The translations under genes were made by a program, and so were the position numbers. A stretch of 64,000 bases of DNA from Opitutus sp. GAS368 (GTDB lineage: Bacteria; Verrucomicrobiota; Verrucomicrobiia; Opitutales; Opitutaceae), in NCBI RefSeq assembly GCF_900104925.1, contig NZ_LT629735.1, positions 2,326,291 to 2,390,290 of the forward strand, read 5' to 3'. A model generated the notes under the pieces. That model was not told the origin of the DNA. It was given only the letters and a program-made list of their open reading frames with translations, and made no database searches. Shown piece after piece: positions 2,443 through 63,840 of the stretch (position 1 is its first letter; every line of letters begins with the position of its first letter).

Positions 2443-2517
2443 AGGTGGAACCCGGCCTCCGGACGGGTTTGCCTTGGCGTGAATCCTGAAAGCGCGTCCG
2501 GAGGCCGCGCTCCACCT
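2443..2517. repeat. Palindromic element (family A)
   Basis: Two 23-base arms at 2443-2465 and 2495-2517 are inverted copies (21 of 23 match). The left arm, starting AGGTGGAACCCGGCCTCC, is nearly repeated at 54473-54495, and its start resembles the arms at 11817 and 63736. It fills the gap between the convergent TIGR03790 gene and clpP. Confidence 0.8.
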
Positions 2518-2524
2518 TTAAGGC

Positions 2525-9734: not shown

Positions 9735-9810
9735 AACCACGAATGGACACGAATAGACACGAATTGGTTTTGGATGAGGCATTCGTGTGAATTCGCGTCC
9801 ATTCGTGGTT
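9735..9810. repeat. Palindromic element (family B)
   Basis: The arm 9735-9754 (AACCACGAATGGACACGAAT) is the inverted copy of 9791-9810 with one mismatch in 20. It fills almost the whole aceB-uraD gap, so the two genes could still be co-transcribed through it. Confidence 0.85.
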
Positions 9811-10423: not shown

Positions 10424-10768
10424 ATGCCCGGCAAACTCAGCACCCACGTCCTCGACCTCACCACCGGCCGGCCCGCCGCCGGGATGCGCATCGAGCTTTG
10501 GAAAAACGACGGCAAGCACACCATGCTCAAGGCCGTCACCACCAACGCCGACGGCCGCACCGACGGCCCGCTGCTGACCGGGGCCGAGATGGCCGTCGGC
10601 AGCTACGAGCTGGTGTTCTTTGTGAAGGATTATTTCGTCACGCATCTGGAGGACAGCCCGTTCCTCGACCGCGTGCCGGTCCGGTTTGCCATCGCCGATG
10701 CCGCGGTCGGCTACCACGTCCCGCTGCTCGTCACGCCCTGGGCCTACAGCACCTACCGCGGGAGCTGA
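10424..10768 (+). CDS. uraH: 5-hydroxyisourate hydrolase (transthyretin-like)
   Basis: 114 residues. It hydrolyses 5-hydroxyisourate, the uricase product, to OHCU. Active-site residues are His8 in KLSTHVLD, Arg45 in NADGRTDGP, His98 in [10 protein letters not shown] and the C-terminal tetrapeptide YRGS (111-114) that defines the enzyme against true transthyretins. No signal peptide, so cytoplasmic. The next gene starts two bases after the stop. Confidence 0.95.
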
Positions 10769-10770
10769 GA

Positions 10771-11331
10771 ATGTCCCTTCTAGCTGAAAACCTCGTCGAA
10801 GAGTGGATGAACCGACAAGGGTTCTTTACTATTCGTGGTGTGAGAGACGGTGTTGCCGAAATCGATTTATTGGGCGTTCGAACAAAAAAAGGATCGATTG
10901 AAGCTTGGCACATTGAATCACAGGTCAGCTTTAATCCCGTCAGTTACGTGACGCCGTTGACTAACGAGCGGGCAAAAAAAATTGGCAAAGCTAGGACGAC
11001 GGCGTGGAAAAGATCGCCTGAAATTATTTCCGAATCGGTCACTGCTTGGATTGAAAAGAAATTTAACTCCACGGCTAAAACAAAGGTCCGAGAAAGATTA
11101 TGGCCTGGCCTAAAATGGCAGAAGAAGTTGGTTTACGGTGTAGTACGTCACTCCGAAGAGGTGAGTGAGCTGGAGAAGCACATTGCATTAGTCCCGTTTT
11201 ATGAGGTTTTGCGTGATCTATGCTGGAATGAGCATGAGCTGTTCTCTGCAACAGGCACAGACATAGCCAACATAGTTGAATACTATGAGGACTGCGCAGC
11301 TGTTAGGCAGAGAGGGAAATCTAGAAAATGA
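10771..11331 (+). CDS. AT-rich gene of unknown function inside the ureide operon; possible PD-(D/E)XK-like fold
   Basis: 186 residues. ATG 10771 follows a GGGAG stretch and lies two bases after the uraH stop. The 3' end overlaps allC by ATGA. Base composition is clearly lower in GC than both neighbours, and codons such as AAA, ATT and TTA are common, which indicates acquisition from elsewhere. No signal peptide or membrane segment. Residues ~22-50 read GVAEIDLLGVR then EAWHIESQVS. An acidic residue on one strand followed by E-x-Q on the next resembles the D...ExK/ExQ core of PD-(D/E)XK nucleases, but this is only a pattern match. No known link to purine breakdown; function unknown. Confidence 0.8.
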   Translation: MSLLAENLVEEWMNRQGFFTIRGVRDGVAEIDLLGVRTKKGSIEAWHIESQVSFNPVSYVTPLTNERAKKIGKARTTAWKRSPEIISESVTAWIEKKFNSTAKTKVRERLWPGLKWQKKLVYGVVRHSEEVSELEKHIALVPFYEVLRDLCWNEHELFSATGTDIANIVEYYEDCAAVRQRGKSRK

Positions 11332-12596
11332 GCAACGCGGCGCAGCTCCTCGTCTCGATGCTGGACGAGCTCGGCCACATCACGGACGAGCCGGGCCGGT
11401 TGAGCCGGACCTTCCTTTCGCCGGCCATGCAGCGGGCGAACCGGCTCGTGGGCGATTGCATGCGGGCCGCCGGGCTGAAGGTGCGGGTGGATGCCGTCGG
11501 CAATCTCATCGGGCGGCTCGCGTCGGCCAATCCCAAGGCCAAGACCCTGTTGCTCGGTTCGCACCTCGACACGGTGCGCGACGCCGGCCGGTTCGACGGG
11601 CCGCCCGGCGTGCTGCTGCCGATCGTGGCGCTCGCGGAGCTGAAGCGCCGCGGGGTGCATTTGCCCTTCCATGTCGAGGTGCTCGGCTTCTCCGAGGAGG
11701 AGGGCGTGCGTTTCGCCAGCGCCTACCTCGGCAGCAAGGGTTATTGTGGGAAGCTGACCGCGAAGGATCTGGCCATGTGCGATGCCGATGGCGTCAGCGT
11801 GAGCGAAGCGATCCAAAGGTGGAACGGCCTGACCCCAGGACATTCAAGCAAGCGCGTTGGGGTCAACGCGCTCCACCTCAAGGCAGCGCACAGCAAAAGT
11901 AACTTATTAGGTTACATCGAGGTGCATATCGAGCAGGGCCCGGTGCTCGAGGCAAAGAAACTCGCCGTGGGCGTCGTCTCGGCCATCGCGGGCCAGAGCC
12001 GCTTCAAGCTGACCTGGACCGGCAAGGCCGGGCATGCCGGCACGACGCCGATGGCGCTGCGCCGCGACGCGCTCGCTGGTGTCGCTGAATTTATTTCGGG
12101 GGTCGAGGCCATCGCGCGCCGCATGCCGGGATTGGTGGCGACCGTCGGGACGCTCACGGTTTCGCCCGGCGCGGCCAATGTGATTCCCGGTTCCGTGGTC
12201 CACACCCTTGATGTTCGTCATGCCGATGACCGCCGGCGCCGCCAGGGGCTGATGGCGATCGGCCGGCTGGCCACGCGGATTGCCGGCCGCCGGAAGCTCA
12301 GCCGCGCCTGGCAACGCACCCAGGAGAACGGCGCGGTGGCCTGCTCGCCATCGTTGACCGCCTGGCTCGAACAGAGCGTGAAAGCGGTGCAGGGCAAATC
12401 GCTCTCGCTCGTCAGCGGCGCCGGCCACGACGGCGTGGTGATGTCCGCGCTGACACCGGTCGCGATGCTCTTGGTGCGGTGCCGGGACGGATTGAGCCAT
12501 CACCCGGATGAATACGCCTCACCCAAGGACCTGGCCGTGGCGCTGGCGGTGGTGACCGACTTCCTGGAGCGACTGGCGAAGGATCAGCGCGGATGA
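11328..12596 (+). CDS. allC: Allantoate amidohydrolase (M20/hydantoinase-carbamoylase family)
   Basis: 422 residues. It converts allantoate to ureidoglycine, CO2 and ammonia. Dinuclear metal ligands are visible: His79 and Asp90 in GSHLDTVRDAGRFD, the Glu pair 124/125 in FSEEEG, and His200 in IEVHIEQGPVLE. The late His lies in SGAGHDGV and the substrate loop is GLSHHPDE. Choice of allantoate over N-carbamoyl amino acids rests on context between uraH and allB. Odd point: residues 164-184 are translated from a palindromic element (11817-11878) and look unlike the family. The next ~10 residues (AAHSKSNLLG) are also atypical. ATGA overlaps on both sides. Confidence 0.88.
   Translation: MSNAAQLLVSMLDELGHITDEPGRLSRTFLSPAMQRANRLVGDCMRAAGLKVRVDAVGNLIGRLASANPKAKTLLLGSHLDTVRDAGRFDGPPGVLLPIVALAELKRRGVHLPFHVEVLGFSEEEGVRFASAYLGSKGYCGKLTAKDLAMCDADGVSVSEAIQRWNGLTPGHSSKRVGVNALHLKAAHSKSNLLGYIEVHIEQGPVLEAKKLAVGVVSAIAGQSRFKLTWTGKAGHAGTTPMALRRDALAGVAEFISGVEAIARRMPGLVATVGTLTVSPGAANVIPGSVVHTLDVRHADDRRRRQGLMAIGRLATRIAGRRKLSRAWQRTQENGAVACSPSLTAWLEQSVKAVQGKSLSLVSGAGHDGVVMSALTPVAMLLVRCRDGLSHHPDEYASPKDLAVALAVVTDFLERLAKDQRG
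11817..11878. repeat. Palindromic element (family A) inside allC
   Basis: Arms 11817-11837 and 11858-11878 are inverted copies (17 of 21). The left arm, AGGTGGAACGGCCTGACCCC, closely matches 63736-63755, and the right arm's GGTCAACGCGCT matches 63796-63807. The element is read through in frame by allC between the metal-binding domain segments. Confidence 0.85.
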
Positions 12597-13993
12597 AACG
12601 GCGCGGAAAAAATCTCGTCGAGGCGACCGAACCCGAAGTGCTCGACCTTGTGGTCCGGGGCGGCCGGGTCGTGACGCCCGACGGCGTGCAGGCCGCCGAG
12701 CTGGGGATCCTGCACGGCAAGATCGTGCGGCTGGCGCCGGAGGTCACCGATCCGACGCACACGGAACTCGACGCGGCCGGCCGTTATGTCTTCCCAGGCA
12801 TCGTCGACGCCCACGTGCATTTCAACGAGCCCGGCCGGACGGAATGGGAGGGGCTGGCCCATGGTTCCCTCGCACTCGCGGCCGGCGGCGGCACCTGCTT
12901 CTTCGACATGCCGCTCAACTCCGAGCCGCCCGTGCTGGACGCCGCCGCGTTGCGCGTGAAGCGCGAACTGGCCGAGCAGCAATCATGCGTGGACTTCGCG
13001 CTCTGGGGCGGGCTGGTGCCGGGCAATCTCGACAAGCTGGCCGGCCTGCGCGACGCCGGCGCGATCGGCCTGAAGGCGTTCATGTCGAACAGCGGCATCG
13101 ACAGTTTTCCCCGCGTCGATGCCAAGTCGCTTTACGAGGGCATGAAGCGCGCCGCCAAGCTGGGCCTGCTCGTGGCGGTGCACGCAGAGGACGACGCCCT
13201 GGCGGCGAAGTTCACCGCGGAGCAGCAGGCGAAGGGCCGGCATGACGCCAAGGCCTGGCTCGCGTCGCGCCCGGTCGAGGTCGAGCTGGGCGCGATCCGC
13301 CAGGCGCTCGAGTTCGCCGGCGAGACCGGCTGCGCGCTGCACGTCGTGCACGTCAGCAGTCCGGAGGGCGTCGCCCTCATCACCGAGGCCCGGGCCCAGC
13401 GCGTCGACGTGACGGCCGAGACTTGCTCGCATTACCTTTTGTTGAACGACAAGGACGTTGCGAAGCTCGGCGCCCCGGCCAAGTGCGCTCCGCCGATCCG
13501 CGACGAGAAGCGCCGGCTGGCGCTGTGGCAGGAGCTGCGGGCCGGCCATATCCAGACGGTCGGGTCCGATCACTCGCCGTCGCCGCCGGAGATGAAGACG
13601 GCGAAAAACTTCTTTGAAATCTGGGGCGGCATCGCCGGCGTGCAGCATGGTTTCCAGCTGCTGATGAACGAATGTGCCGCGACGGCGGACCAGGATCTGC
13701 CGCGGCTGGCGGCGGTGCTGGCGCGGAATGTCGCGCGCCGCTTCCGGATCGACGACCGCAAGGGCCTGCTGGCCGAGGGGCGCGACGCGGATTTCACCCT
13801 CGTCGAGTTCGGCCCCAAGCGGACCATCAAGGCGGACGACCTGTGGACGCGCCACCGGATCAGCCCGTATGTCGGCCGGGCCAACCGGACGCGTGTGACC
13901 CATACTTATGTCCGCGGCTGCCCCGTATGGGCTGACGGCGGGGTTGCATCCGGCTCGCCGAAGGGTCAGTTTCTGCGCCCAACCCACACCTGA
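12593..13993 (+). CDS. allB: Allantoinase
   Basis: 466 residues, cyclic amidohydrolase family. It opens the hydantoin ring of allantoin to allantoate. Metal site: His74/His76 in DAHVHFNEPG, Lys161 (carboxylated bridge) in GLKAFMSNSG, His197 in VAVHAED, His253 in HVVHVSS and Asp326 in GSDHSPSP. The FNEPGRTEWEG segment and KAFMSNSG are typical of allantoinase rather than dihydroorotase or dihydropyrimidinase. The start overlaps the allC stop (ATGA). The N-terminus has about a dozen extra residues before the beta-sandwich strand LDLVVRGGRVV. Confidence 0.93.
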   Translation: MKRRGKNLVEATEPEVLDLVVRGGRVVTPDGVQAAELGILHGKIVRLAPEVTDPTHTELDAAGRYVFPGIVDAHVHFNEPGRTEWEGLAHGSLALAAGGGTCFFDMPLNSEPPVLDAAALRVKRELAEQQSCVDFALWGGLVPGNLDKLAGLRDAGAIGLKAFMSNSGIDSFPRVDAKSLYEGMKRAAKLGLLVAVHAEDDALAAKFTAEQQAKGRHDAKAWLASRPVEVELGAIRQALEFAGETGCALHVVHVSSPEGVALITEARAQRVDVTAETCSHYLLLNDKDVAKLGAPAKCAPPIRDEKRRLALWQELRAGHIQTVGSDHSPSPPEMKTAKNFFEIWGGIAGVQHGFQLLMNECAATADQDLPRLAAVLARNVARRFRIDDRKGLLAEGRDADFTLVEFGPKRTIKADDLWTRHRISPYVGRANRTRVTHTYVRGCPVWADGGVASGSPKGQFLRPTHT

Positions 13994-13994
13994 C

Positions 13995-14738
13995 ATGTCC
14001 GACCTTTTTGGCCACACCCGCGCCCGCATCGCCGCCCGCCACGCCCTGATCACGCCGGGCAACCACGTGAACAGCTCCGTGCCGGGCATCACGGGCGCGA
14101 CGACGGTCGTCCTGTTCAACGAGGCCATGGGCGCGAAGTTCGCGCAGCTGCTGGTGACCTTCACGGCCGACGGCCGCGCCGCGCAGCCGGCGAGCGGCAC
14201 GCAGACCTTTGGCTACGTCGTGCACGGGGGCGGCGCGCTGACGGTGGGGAAGGAAAAGGCGAAGATCGGCGCCGGCGGGTTTTTCTACGTGCCCGCCGGC
14301 CAGTCGTGGAGCCTAGCCACGCCCAAGGCCGGCACGCAGCTGACGCTTTTCCAGAAAAAGTATGTCGCGCTTCCCGGCACGCCCCTGCCCAAGGCCATCA
14401 TCGGCGATGCGGCCAAGGTGAAGGGCGCGGCGTTCCTCGGCGACCCGGCGGCCAACCTGCAGGTGCTGCTGCCCGACGAGCCGGCCTTCGACCTGGCCGT
14501 GAACATTTTCGCCTACCAACCGGGCGGCCACCTGCCGTTCGTGGAGGTGCACGTCATGGAGCACGGCCTCGTCATGCTCGGCGGCGCGGGCGTCTACCGC
14601 CTCGAGGACAGCTGGTATCCGGTGCAGGCGGGCGACGCCGTCTGGATGGCGCCGTATTGCGCGCAGTGGTTTGTCGCCATGGGCAAGGTCCCCGCGAGCT
14701 ATCTCTATTACAAGGATGTCAACCGTCCGGCCATCTGA
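13995..14738 (+). CDS. allE: (S)-ureidoglycine aminohydrolase
   Basis: 247 residues, bicupin of the YlbA/AllE (UGHY) family. It releases ammonia from (S)-ureidoglycine to give (S)-ureidoglycolate. The C-terminal cupin carries the Mn ligands Glu184, His186, His190 (EVHVMEHG) and Gln224 (YCAQWF). ATG 13995 is one base after the allB stop and fits the family start; longer in-frame starts run through allB. The 3' end overlaps the xdh start by 23 bases. The ureidoglycolate-degrading enzyme expected next (AllA or AllD) is not in the window. Confidence 0.9.
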   Translation: MSDLFGHTRARIAARHALITPGNHVNSSVPGITGATTVVLFNEAMGAKFAQLLVTFTADGRAAQPASGTQTFGYVVHGGGALTVGKEKAKIGAGGFFYVPAGQSWSLATPKAGTQLTLFQKKYVALPGTPLPKAIIGDAAKVKGAAFLGDPAANLQVLLPDEPAFDLAVNIFAYQPGGHLPFVEVHVMEHGLVMLGGAGVYRLEDSWYPVQAGDAVWMAPYCAQWFVAMGKVPASYLYYKDVNRPAI

Positions 14739-17700
14739 CCCGGCGGCTCCGGCCAGTCTCGACCTCATCGTCAACGGCCGTGCCGTCTCCACCGCGGGCG
14801 TGGCGTCCACCACCACGCTGCTGGCCTGGTTGCGCGCCAACGGCCTGACGGGCGCCAAGGAAGGCTGCGCCGAGGGCGACTGCGGTGCGTGCTCCGTGGC
14901 GCTGGTGGACCGCGATGCGAAGGGCAAAGCGACCTACCGCGCCTTCAATAGCTGCATCGCGCTGGTGCCGATGTTCGCCGGCCGCGAGATCGTGACGGTC
15001 GAGGGCCTCGCGCAATGCGGCGCCGACAAAAAGCAGCTCCACCCGGTGCAGGCCGCGATGGTGGAGCACTACGGCTCCCAATGCGGCTATTGCACGCCCG
15101 GCTTCGTGGTCTCGATGTTCGAGGCCTATTACCGGGACGGCTGCAAGGAGCCATGGCAGGTCAGCGACCAGCTCTGTGGCAATCTCTGCCGCTGCACCGG
15201 CTACCGGCCGATCCGCGATGCGGCGGTGGCGGCGCTCGCCCAGCGCAATGTAGGGTCGGCGCTTGCGCCGACCGCGCCGAAGGTCGGCGCAAGCGCCGAC
15301 CCTACAACCGATCACTTTGCCGCCCGCTTGCAGGTCCCGGTGCATCCGCCCATGGCGCTCAACTACACCGCGGGCGAGGCGAAGTTCTTCCGCCCCACGT
15401 CGCTGCCGGGGATGTTCACGCTGCTCGCCACCTACCCGGCGGCCCAGTTGGTGGCCGGCGCGACCGAGATCGGCGTCGAGTTGAACAAGAAGTTCAAGGC
15501 GTTCCCGCTGCTCATCTCCACCGAGGGCGTGCCGGAACTGACGCGCATCACCGCGACGACCGAGGCCTGGCACATCGGCGCCGGCGCCACGCTGACCAAC
15601 GTCGAGGAGGTGCTGGGCCACGAGTATCCCTCCATTGCGAAGATGCTGCGCGTGTTCGCCGCCCGCCAGATCCGCAACCGTGCCACGCTGGGCGGCAACC
15701 TCGTGACGGCGTCGCCCATCGGCGACAGCGCCCCGGTGCTGCTGACGCTCGACGCGAGCGTCGTGCTCGTCACCGCCAAGGGCGAGCGCACGGTGCCGCT
15801 GGCCGAGTTCTTCACCGCCTACCGCAAGACCGTGCTGAAGCCCGGCGAGATCATGCGCGAGATCGTGTTGCCGCGCGGCGGGCCGACCCGCGGCCTGACG
15901 CGCCGGGTGGATTTCCTCAAGGTCTCCAAGCGCCGCGAGCTCGACATCAGCATCGTGGCGGCGGCGTTCTGTGTGGACCTCGATGCCGGCGGTATCGTCC
16001 GCAAGGCGCGCATTGCCTACGGCGGCGTGGCGGCGATGCCGCTACGGGCGTTGAAGGCCGAGACGGCGCTGGTGGGCAAGAAGCTGAATGATCCGGCGGT
16101 GGCGCACCTCCTCCATGACACTTTCAAGCCGATCGACGATGCCCGCAGCGGTGCCGACTACCGGCGCGGTCTGGTCGTCAGCCTCTGGGAGAAATTCGTC
16201 TCGGGCGAACAGAGCCAGGCGCAGGACGCCGATCTGGGGTTCGCCGGCGACAGCCGGTGGCCAATCGAAGATGCCTCCCGCAACCTGCGGCACGAGAGCG
16301 CCGTCGGCCACGTGACCGGCCGGGCGCTGTATGTGGACGACACGGCGCAGCGCCGGAAGATGCTCGATTGCTGGCCGGTCTGCGCGCCGCACGCCCACGC
16401 GAAGATTTTGCGGCGCGACGCCACCAAGGCCCGGCAGGCGCTGGGCATTCACGCCGTGCTGCTGGCCGAGGACATCCCCGGTGAGAACAACACCGGCCCG
16501 GTGCGGCACGACGAGCCGCTGCTGGCGCAGGACGAGATTCTTTTCCACGGTCAGATGGTGGCCTGGGTGGTCGGAGATTCGCTCGCGGCGTGCCGCGCCG
16601 CCGCGGCGCTGGTCGAGGTGGACTACGAGCCGTTGCCCGCGATCATCGGCCTGCCGGCCGCCATCGCGGCGGGCAGCTACCACACCGAGCCGCACGCGCT
16701 GAAGCGCGGCGATGTCGCGACGGCGTTGGGGACGGCGCCGGCCCGGCTCGAAGGCGAGTTCGAATTTGGCGGGCAGGAGCATTTCTACCTCGAGACGCAC
16801 GCGGCCTGGGCCGAGGCGGGCGAGGAAGGCAGCGTGTTGGTCAATTCCTCGACCCAGCATCCGTCGGAGATCCAGGCCATCGTCGCCGAGGTGCTGCATG
16901 TGGCGCGACACAAGGTCGTCGTGCAGGCCCCGCGCATGGGCGGCGGCTTCGGCGGCAAGGAAACGCAGGGCAACGGCTTCGCGGCGCTGGTGGCGCTGGC
17001 GGCGGTGAAGACCGGCCGGCCGGTGCGCGTGCAGCTCGACCGCGACCTCGACATGAAGCTGACGGGCAAGCGGCACCCGTTCCATGCCAGGTTTTCCATC
17101 GGCCACGACAACGACGGGCGGTTGCTCGCCGCGCAGGTCGAGCTGGTGTCGGACGGCGGCTGGTCGCTCGACCTGTCCACGGCGATCAACGACCGCGCGC
17201 TGTTCCACCTCGACAACGCCTACTACATCCCGGCGGTGCATTTAAGCGGCCGGGTGGCGAAGACCAATGTGACGTCGCACACGGCGTTCCGCGGCTTCGG
17301 CGGCCCACAGGGCATGATCGTCATCGAGGAGATCATCGATCGCATCGCGCGCCAAACCGGCCTGCCGCCGGCGGTCGTGCGCGAGCGCAACCTTTACCAC
17401 GGGACCGGCGAAACCAACCGCACGCACTACAACGAGGACATCGGCGACAACCGCATCCAGCATATCTGGCAACAGGTGCTCGCGCAGGCGGAGTTCGCCA
17501 AGCGGCGCACCGAGGTCGACCAATGGAACCGGGCCAATCCGCACATGAAGCGCGGGCTGGCGGTGACGCCGGTGAAGTTCGGCATCAGCTTCACGCTCTC
17601 GCACTACAACCAGGCCGGCGCGCTGGTGCACATTTATCAGGACGGCTCGGTGCAGGTGAATCACGGCGGCACCGAGATGGGGCAGGGGTTGCACACCAAG

Positions 17701-18609
17701 ATTCTCGGCGTCGCCATGCGCGAGCTCGGCCTCCCCGCCGCCAGCATCCGGCTGATGACCACCAGCACCGATAAGGTGCCGAACACCTCGGCCACGGCGG
17801 CGTCGAGCGGCGCCGACCTGAACGGCGCGGCGGTGGCGGCGGCGTGCGCCACGCTCCGCGAGCGGCTGCTGCCGGTGGCGGCGGGCCTGCTTTCGGCAGG
17901 TAGGGCGGGGTTTACCGCCGACATGTCGGGCATAAAGCCAGACCTGCAAGAAATAGTTTTCGAAAACGGCGAGGTTTTCGCAAAATCGAACCCGTCGGCC
18001 CGTCTCCCCTTCGCCCAGGTCTGCGCCAAGGCCTACGCGGAGCGCATCAGCCTTTCGTCGACCGGCTACTACAAGACGCCCGGCGTGAAGTGGGACTGGG
18101 TCAAGGCCGAGGGCCGGCCGTTCCACTACTTCGCCTGCGGCGCGGCCGTGGCGGAGGTGGAGGTGGACGGTTTCTCCGGCATGCACCGCGTGCGGCGCGT
18201 GGACATCGTCCATGACGTCGGCGACTCGCTCAACCCCGGCGTGGACCGCGGCCAGATCGAGGGCGGCTTCGTGCAGGGCATGGGCTGGCTCACGCGCGAG
18301 GAACTGCGTTGGGACAAGCAAGGCCGGTTGCTCACGCACAGCGCCAGCACCTACCAGATTCCCGCGTTCAGCGACGCGCCTGTCGAATTCAACGTCACGC
18401 TTTTGCCCCGGGCCGCGCAGTCCAACACCATCCACGGCAGCAAGGCCGTGGGCGAGCCGCCGTTGATGCTGGCGTTCTCGGTGCGCGAGGCGCTGCGCGA
18501 CGCGGTGGCGGCGTTCGGTCCACCCGGCGGCGAGGTGCCGCTGGCCTCGCCCGCGACGGGCGAGGCGATCTTCGCCTCGATTCAGTCGCGGCTGACTGGA
18601 CCGGCATGA
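14716..18609 (+). CDS. xdh: Single-chain xanthine dehydrogenase (XdhA-XdhB fusion)
   Basis: 1297 residues with all three parts in one chain. The two [2Fe-2S] sites are C51/C56/C59/C80 and C123/C126/C158/C160 (CGYCTPG, CRCTGYRP). The FAD domain is about 210-490 (GGNLVTASPIGD), and the molybdopterin domain follows (MGGGFGGKETQG, TAFRGFGGPQGM, catalytic Glu1247 in GSKAVGEPPL). It oxidises hypoxanthine/xanthine to urate. Many bacteria split this into xdhA and xdhB. The ATG at 14716 lies inside the end of the previous gene. Two palindromes are translated within it: residues 178-197, between the Fe-S and FAD domains, and about 1061-1077. Both preserve the frame. Confidence 0.93.
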   Translation: MSTVRPSDPAAPASLDLIVNGRAVSTAGVASTTTLLAWLRANGLTGAKEGCAEGDCGACSVALVDRDAKGKATYRAFNSCIALVPMFAGREIVTVEGLAQCGADKKQLHPVQAAMVEHYGSQCGYCTPGFVVSMFEAYYRDGCKEPWQVSDQLCGNLCRCTGYRPIRDAAVAALAQRNVGSALAPTAPKVGASADPTTDHFAARLQVPVHPPMALNYTAGEAKFFRPTSLPGMFTLLATYPAAQLVAGATEIGVELNKKFKAFPLLISTEGVPELTRITATTEAWHIGAGATLTNVEEVLGHEYPSIAKMLRVFAARQIRNRATLGGNLVTASPIGDSAPVLLTLDASVVLVTAKGERTVPLAEFFTAYRKTVLKPGEIMREIVLPRGGPTRGLTRRVDFLKVSKRRELDISIVAAAFCVDLDAGGIVRKARIAYGGVAAMPLRALKAETALVGKKLNDPAVAHLLHDTFKPIDDARSGADYRRGLVVSLWEKFVSGEQSQAQDADLGFAGDSRWPIEDASRNLRHESAVGHVTGRALYVDDTAQRRKMLDCWPVCAPHAHAKILRRDATKARQALGIHAVLLAEDIPGENNTGPVRHDEPLLAQDEILFHGQMVAWVVGDSLAACRAAAALVEVDYEPLPAIIGLPAAIAAGSYHTEPHALKRGDVATALGTAPARLEGEFEFGGQEHFYLETHAAWAEAGEEGSVLVNSSTQHPSEIQAIVAEVLHVARHKVVVQAPRMGGGFGGKETQGNGFAALVALAAVKTGRPVRVQLDRDLDMKLTGKRHPFHARFSIGHDNDGRLLAAQVELVSDGGWSLDLSTAINDRALFHLDNAYYIPAVHLSGRVAKTNVTSHTAFRGFGGPQGMIVIEEIIDRIARQTGLPPAVVRERNLYHGTGETNRTHYNEDIGDNRIQHIWQQVLAQAEFAKRRTEVDQWNRANPHMKRGLAVTPVKFGISFTLSHYNQAGALVHIYQDGSVQVNHGGTEMGQGLHTKILGVAMRELGLPAASIRLMTTSTDKVPNTSATAASSGADLNGAAVAAACATLRERLLPVAAGLLSAGRAGFTADMSGIKPDLQEIVFENGEVFAKSNPSARLPFAQVCAKAYAERISLSSTGYYKTPGVKWDWVKAEGRPFHYFACGAAVAEVEVDGFSGMHRVRRVDIVHDVGDSLNPGVDRGQIEGGFVQGMGWLTREELRWDKQGRLLTHSASTYQIPAFSDAPVEFNVTLLPRAAQSNTIHGSKAVGEPPLMLAFSVREALRDAVAAFGPPGGEVPLASPATGEAIFASIQSRLTGPA
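15249..15306. repeat. Perfect 25-bp inverted repeat inside xdh
   Basis: Arms 15249-15273 and 15282-15306 are exact inverted copies (25 of 25), beginning TGTAGGGTCGGCGCTTGCGC, with an 8-base loop. It is translated as an Ala/Pro/Gly-rich linker between the iron-sulfur and FAD domains. Its GTAGGGTCGGC arm resembles other GTAGGG-type elements in the window (8031). Confidence 0.95.
17896..17947. repeat. Imperfect palindrome inside the molybdenum domain of xdh
   Basis: GCAGGTAGGGCGGGGTTTAC at the left and GTCGGGCATAAAGCCAGACC at the right pair imperfectly around a short centre. The right arm's CGGGCATAAAGCC resembles the CGGGGCATAAAGCCCC found at 61381 and 63814. The following ~55 bases are also lower in GC than the rest of the gene. 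Confidence 0.65.
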
Positions 18610-61351: not shown

Positions 61352-61402
61352 GAGGGCGGTTGGGGCAACCGCCCCTACCGTCGGGGCGTAAAGCCCCTCC
61401 CA
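61352..61402. repeat. Palindromic element beside brnT and uvrD
   Basis: GGGCGGTT/AACCGCCC hairpin followed by CCTACCGTCGGGGCGTAAAG and CCCCTCCCAC. The second part recurs at 63811-63835 and resembles 17896-17947. Confidence 0.75.
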
Positions 61403-61408
61403 CGTCGA

Positions 61409-63735: not shown

Positions 63736-63840
63736 AGGTGGAACGGGCTGACCCCGGCGCGTTGGTTCGATCTGCGCAAAAAAGAAGCGCGTTGAGGTCA
63801 ACGCGCTACACCGTCGGGGCATAAAGCCCCTCCCAGCGGG
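63736..63840. repeat. Family A palindrome plus CGGGGCATAAAGCCCC element
   Basis: AGGTGGAACGGGCTGACCCC (63736-63755) matches the arm inside allC at 11817. The palindrome AGCGCGTTGAGGTCAACGCG.. (63786-63807) is perfect over 22 bases. It is followed at 63811 by CCGTCGGGGCATAAAGCCCC. It ends a few bases from the frr stop. Confidence 0.85.

Follow-up and report, generated by a model that had tools for sequence, protein, structure and literature searches.

Genes for repetitive extragenic palindrome (REP)-associated tyrosine transposases (RAYTs) are flanked by their REPs, and populations of REP doublets forming hairpins (REPINs) in Pseudomonas and other bacteria have been described as extragenic. 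GTAG REPs, short RAYT-linked palindromes that often form dimers, are also found within open reading frames (ORFs), where they encode about 20-30 residues; their intragenic copies are most numerous in Opitutus terrae, uvrA and DNA ligase being among the hosts, and a neutral placement in linkers and loops has been proposed (PMC3733652, in the sections drawn on here). According to the same sections, recB of two Xanthomonas species carries different REPs at about the same site, and other genes of the same category carry REPs at different sites. The Rickettsia palindromic elements (RPEs), RPE-1 to RPE-7, lie in frame in many genes, housekeeping genes included, and in solvent-exposed regions of the proteins; RPE-4, -6 and -7 occupy shared sites at which all the compared orthologues were filled, hotspots being called 'still not negligible' although a common origin was favoured (PMC3767692, in the part used here). 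Here we report that, in a stretch of 64,000 nucleotides of Opitutus sp. GAS368 (hereafter the window; positions 2326291-2390290 of a single-contig genome of 4,150,783 bp, labelled G000, with its Xdh locus labelled L070), one palindrome within allC and two within xdh belong to repeated families, keep the reading frame and lie in loops or linkers, that orthologues have the same sites empty, and that different families occupy one and the same site in different species.

The window elements resemble RPEs in that they were inserted in frame with the gene retained, a likeness by behaviour for which membership of the RPE class is not claimed, and differ from them in that the sites are often empty and the families unrelated (compared with the same part of PMC3767692). 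With the REPINs and RAYTs of Pseudomonas and others they share REP dimers in inverted order that form hairpins (PMC3116915 and PMC8049555, in excerpt). A first-pass annotation of the window had cited Rickettsia as a rare case of protein-coding insertions; it is indeed a precedent, but not the sole one, intragenic GTAG REPs having been published (PMC3733652, in part). With respect to the sections of that paper drawn on here, the present analysis differs in aligning filled and empty orthologues across the genus and in finding several unrelated families per site, in several genes.

The first-pass annotation had placed three palindromes at the positions listed in Table 1, and these were recovered, including the perfect 25-bp inverted repeat at 15249-15306 and the preservation of the reading frame through all three elements. 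The residue range given for AllC stood, whereas those for Xdh (178-197 and 1061-1077) became the ranges in Table 1 when counted from the ATG at 14719. The inverted repeat at 15249-15306 encloses a loop of 8 nt and is the strongest fold among the 638 60-nt segments of xdh (z = -6.5, from 500 first-order Markov shuffles, as for the other two elements). The AllC element (z = -1.8, best rank 109 of 201 segments) and the element at 17896-17947 (z = -1.5, best rank 182 of 638), which are bulged or decayed, were unremarkable as folds, and the latter also failed the ungapped-stem test (p = 0.37). Since folding alone would miss the AllC element and ungapped-stem tests alone the second Xdh element, the two were identified by family matches and orthologues.

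Repeated copies of the elements were found elsewhere in the genome. The F1 REP, GTAGGGTCGGCGCTTGCGCCGAC, has 64 half-sites genome-wide at up to 3 mismatches, against 0 for the reversed control, many of them about 30-55 nt apart in opposite orientation, and GTCAACGCGCTCCACCTT has 83 matches in the genome as compared to 10 for its reversed control. In uncontrolled comparisons, the right arm of the AllC element is identical over 28/28 positions to an intergenic copy (L134:2518-2545) and 93% identical to 63785-63812 of the window, in line with the match that had been proposed near 63736-63807, while an element in a UDG-like gene and an intergenic copy are 95.8% and 91.7% identical, respectively, to the second Xdh element, each over 24 nt. 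Its proposed kinship with the intergenic copies at 61352 and 63811 was likewise seen, as a likeness of right halves judged by eye, and a cleaner copy of it is present at the same site in the orthologue L178. The unpaired GTAG terminal motif is present in the element at Xdh site 1 (TGTAGGGTCGGCG... at both ends) and missing from the AllC family, which ends in GGTGGAAC; the AllC element is not classed as a GTAG-tagged REP. In O. terrae, GTAG-20 is mostly GTGG (PMC3733652, same sections).

Table 1. Palindromic elements of the window, their intergenic relatives and the host genes
Feature	Position	Strand	Remarks
REP-like palindrome RWNGLTPGHSSKRVGVNALHL, in frame, AllC residues 164-184	11817..11878	+	family matches, orthologues, disordered loop in model
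F1 REP dimer, perfect 25-bp inverted repeat, Xdh residues 177-196 (site 1)	15249..15306	+	2Fe-2S/FAD linker
Decayed palindrome, Xdh residues 1060-1077 (site 2)	17896..17947	+	inverted repeat 76% complementary; copy similarity
Intergenic relative of AllC element	63737..63812		right-arm match
Intergenic palindrome	61352..61403		right half like Xdh site 2 (by eye); 96% over 25 nt to ftsY element
Intergenic half-palindrome	63812..63835		24/24 to ftsY element; like right half of Xdh site 2 (by eye)
Intergenic palindrome	2443..2518		family of recD2 in-gene element, 92% over 77 nt
allC, allantoate amidohydrolase, 422 aa	11328..12596	+	NCBIfam NF006775 above cut-off; host of first element
xdh, fused XdhA-XdhB xanthine dehydrogenase, 1296 aa	14719..18609	+	TIGR02963 and TIGR02965 above cut-offs; host of two elements

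Orthologues lacking the extra residues, the check that the first-pass annotation had named, exist at all three sites among the relatives compared, from the genus and from named Verrucomicrobia, which are mostly draft metagenome-assembled genomes. Xdh site 1 measures 66-69 nt in the close relatives G018, G011 and G007 as compared to 117 nt in the window genome, Xdh site 2 measures 60 nt in seven orthologues of the genus (G011, G012, G009, G015, G016, G003 and G001) as compared to 102 nt, and the AllC site measures 120 nt in eight orthologues of the genus and three more distant ones as compared to 153 nt. Because the elements match genome repeats and many orthologues are devoid of them, the window elements are insertions. 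Relative to G004, AllC shows a net gain of 33 nt; relative to G018, Xdh site 1 gains 51 nt; and relative to the orthologues with an empty site of 60 nt, Xdh site 2 gains 42 nt, that is 11-17 residues and not the approximately 20 residues each that had been expected; the gain is smaller than the element because part of the native sequence was replaced.

The proposed location at linkers or loops was upheld by structure models for AllC and Xdh site 1 and by alignment for Xdh site 2. In the AllC model, which resembles solved allantoate and carbamoyl amidohydrolases, the only segment of at least 3 residues with a predicted local distance difference test score (pLDDT) below 50 is 172-181. In the model of the Xdh N-terminal part, the lowest 10-residue block is 181-190, within a segment (179-195) between the 2Fe-2S and FAD parts; this model is weaker, with a mean pLDDT of 75 and seven such low segments. 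Xdh site 2 is a clean insert relative to mammalian xanthine oxidoreductase, where the match ends at query residue 1053 (chain residue 1104) and restarts at query residue 1087 (chain residue 1104).

The same Xdh sites are occupied by different palindrome families in different species, with families distinguished by eye. At site 1 there are four: F1 in L070, L080, L154 (half only), L171 and L206, the GGTAGGGCGGCGACTCCG family in L150 and L158, the GGTGGAAC family in L179, and a fourth family in L172 and L173 (Limisphaerales; Verrucomicrobia subdivision 3), which fall outside the Opitutaceae branch of the tree. Site 2 has five, namely the window family, also present in L164 and L178, the TGTGGGAGCGA family in L150 (G004), L152 (G007) and L182 (G018), and one further family each in L179, in L154 and in L172/L173. 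A palindrome family was assigned in 10/39 rows at site 1 and 10/38 at site 2; one row and two rows, respectively, hold unclassified inserts, and 28 and 26 rows are empty. Parsimony on the Xdh tree required at least 10 state changes at site 1 (39 rows) and at least 11 at site 2 (38 rows). The tree was a quick LG+G4 tree with SH-aLRT support only, with the site columns left out; L072 and L179 are the same genome, of which it takes L179 only. Site 1 of L171 may be one palindrome nested in another. Further palindromic insertions lie off the three sites, in AllC of L158 and L164 near residues 62-67, and in Xdh of L164 near residue 272 and of L211 near residues 336 and 520.

The TGTGGGAGCGA family has 0 matches in G000 and 89, 76 and 35 matches in G018, G007 and G004, respectively, the three genomes with this family at Xdh site 2. 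F1 has 22 matches in G000 and 29 in G016, both of which carry F1 at Xdh site 1. To judge from such counts, the occupants partly follow the families carried by each genome. Association with transposase genes was examined for the F1 and TGTGGGAGCGA families. G000 has 9 Y1_Tnp matches, of which the one at G000:1185314-1185562 is flanked by F1 REPs in inverted order, and both G018 and G010 have intact Y1_Tnp genes of 174 aa with inverted pairs of TGTGGGAGCGA elements on either side. The TGTGGGAGCGAGCTTGCTCGCGA family presumably resembles Pseudomonas REPs. The arrangement of REPs and transposase genes, together with the REPtron literature (PMC3733652), suggests that a RAYT moves the elements.

Palindromes within genes are not confined to allC and xdh, and further in-gene copies in the same genome had been another proposed check. 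We sampled 864 kb (the window and 40 stretches of 20 kb at near-regular intervals), in which genes were predicted by a codon-usage-based script and 87.1% was coding. Only 8/95 strict palindromes and 12/117 lax ones lay within predicted genes (7/89 and 11/109, respectively, in the 800 kb outside the window), which agrees with the earlier statement that REPs avoid genes. Nine of the 12 lax in-gene palindromes are in Pfam-supported genes, for xdh, a UvrA-type protein (2002 aa), TsaD, PurL, FtsY, an RsmB-type methyltransferase, RecD2, a UDG-type protein and NadE. The TsaD palindrome lies within the domain span, and the other eight lie between or outside the best domain matches, that of NadE touching one by two residues. 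For all of the 11 in-gene elements of G000 that were tested, the sample contains one or more intergenic copies or half-copies; the purL element, with two 25-nt matches, is the weakest and least REP-like, and was still counted. Extrapolation from the eight outside the window in 800 kb would give about 40 in-gene palindromes per genome. Three candidates were dropped, L137:18422 and L227:16370 for having no REP-like sequence by eye, and L231:9885, which has no Pfam match and whose gene start is probably downstream. The 2002-aa UvrA-type protein (L131:7945-13950) has, besides one palindromic insert, a 28-nt match to the nadE-type element at L131:12181-12208, a situation reminiscent of O. terrae, for which uvrA genes hit twice have been reported.

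Relatives were compared for tsaD, nadE and ftsY as well. The TsaD site is filled in 6/20 rows of the genus, 4/6 of which pass the palindrome test, and empty at exactly 30 nt in 14/20; palindromes are present in 4/30 rows of NadE and 4/30 of FtsY, with more than one family in each by eye. Across the compared genes, the share of rows with a filled site ranged from about one tenth to about one third. When all insertions of at least 10 residues in the five proteins were considered, 35/60 were palindromic as compared to 7/600 control stretches from the same genes, related rows in these counts not being independent of one another. By protein, these were 19/30 in Xdh, 5/9 in AllC, 4/6 in TsaD, 3/5 in NadE and 4/10 in FtsY, and with the window genome's own rows excluded 30/54 long insertions were palindromic. 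The test missed two site-1 palindromes (L150 and L179) that passed the ungapped-stem test. A comparison of occupants with the G000 sample and the loci gave matches for 26/74 stretches, a weak figure since the 74 include native linkers. In tsaD of G017, a 54-nt palindrome 100% identical to a G000 intergenic copy adjoins one half of the element that G004 carries, an arrangement suggesting that one element inserted into an insert already present. For FtsY of G017 a palindrome nested in place is not claimed, as the composite exists as a family in G000. The presence of different families at the same sites indicates that linkers are re-occupied, and in these proteins palindromes are a main source of long insertions.

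It is very probable, on this comparative evidence, that non-autonomous palindromes of REP/REPIN type entered coding sequence and survived only in harmless linkers and surface loops, with the frame kept. The inference of the first-pass annotation, that mobile palindromes are tolerated here as coding inserts, gains support from the empty orthologues and from the further in-gene copies. RAYTs (IS200-like, HUH) would act on REP hairpins and thereby move them, purifying selection would purge most other in-gene insertions, and a later element may sometimes land in an earlier insert, which would be a dispensable landing pad. A wider proposal is tentative, with the chances somewhat against it: mobile palindromes may be the leading source of long insertions in this lineage, with a genus-wide map of about a hundred or more tolerant sites, housekeeping tsaD and ftsY included, emptied and refilled by the REP families of each species, an earlier insert often being the landing pad. 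The number of tolerant sites is an extrapolation from the approximately 40 filled per genome and the filled fraction in the compared genes.

Several observations weigh against the account of REP/REPIN-type insertions. G010, G014 and G012 have 62, 66 and 47 TGTGGGAGCGA copies, respectively, yet carry another element or none at Xdh site 2. The only F1 match of G010 (at most 1 mismatch) is the one in its xdh, where an occupant drawn from a resident population fails as an account unless the family was lost or the operon exchanged. That xdh (L154:5527) has the right half of F1 only, and the frame changes there, residues 1-186 and 186-1294 being in different frames; this is either an assembly collapse or a real break. 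The F1-flanked Y1_Tnp gene of G000 has an in-frame TGA. On the Xdh tree a gain looks the same as a loss, or as recombination across species. Comparison with relatives covers three of the eight further genes (TsaD, NadE and FtsY), the five proteins were picked for having an insert in the window genome, and 25/60 long insertions fail the palindrome test.

A single ancient insert at each site, diverged past recognition and with no independent insertions, would explain why sites are common to several species and why some occupants share flanks or halves, e.g. TsaD of G004, G010 and G017; same-family occupants in sister species may also be vertical. This is unlikely, as many orthologues are empty, outgroups included (Xdh 28/39 and 26/38 rows, TsaD 14/20), the occupants match families that are distinct and occur as repeats in their own right, and G000 is devoid of the family found at Xdh site 2 of G004, G018 and G007. 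For Xdh and TsaD the ancient-insert account is disfavoured.

Quite improbable, too, is that the hairpins are retained because they themselves have a function, be it ribosome slowing at a domain boundary, mRNA stability or processing in the purine operon, or a useful peptide. Most in-gene cases do lie at or outside domain boundaries, and no other fold in xdh comes near that of site 1 in strength. Against this stand the patchy occupancy, the differing families and the decaying stems: neither the AllC element nor the second Xdh element still folds strongly, and the TGTGGGAGCGA stem at Xdh site 2 retains 20/23 pairs in L182 (G018) and L152 (G007) as compared to 22/23 in L150 (G004). Chance self-complementarity of GC-rich coding sequence, to which the two unremarkable folds of the window and the 2/12 lax in-gene hits that look like chance by eye could be ascribed, is very improbable given that family members are repeated elsewhere in the genome, that orthologues lack the elements, that 464 kb of Markov-shuffled sequence gave 1 stem as compared to 39 observed, and that controls were far less often palindromic than insertions (7/600 and 35/60); it is refuted for 15249-15306 and for the class, and is least strongly excluded for 17896-17947 alone.

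The host genes allC and xdh belong to a purine-breakdown cluster together with genes for OHCU decarboxylase, allantoinase and ureidoglycine aminohydrolase. An ORF (10498-11331) situated between allC and the OHCU decarboxylase gene has a low GC (0.47 at 10750-11249 as compared to 0.63-0.70 on its flanks), gave no match in NCBIfam and Pfam profile searches and looks acquired. A 30-bp inverted repeat of another family (AACCACGAATGGACACGAAT...) lies at 9735-9810, between the OHCU decarboxylase gene and the predicted gene that precedes it. At 11899-11915, 20 nt past the AllC element, is a 17-nt palindrome, GTAACTTATTAGGTTAC, which codes for the conserved NLLGY and adds no length. With up to 1 mismatch allowed, it occurs in 12/21 genomes of the genus (reversed control 0). 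Some copies form the centre of longer palindromes, others are paired around what by eye looks to be a small ORF, and the palindrome could be an operator of the product of that ORF.

REPs within genes were already known, and the new part is the re-occupation of the same protein sites by unrelated families; no description of such repeated re-use of fixed sites across a genus was found in open-licence PMC papers. For Rickettsia, the choice between hotspots and relics of single insertions was left open (PMC3767692, in the part used here), and the present data favour repeated insertion. With empty sites, distinct families and a family content specific to each species, the hotspot question becomes directly testable. 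The sites amount to a natural experiment, in which one enzyme loop carries different peptides of about 10-35 residues in sister species, housekeeping proteins included. In-gene palindromes map where proteins tolerate insertions, and are selfish DNA becoming protein sequence.

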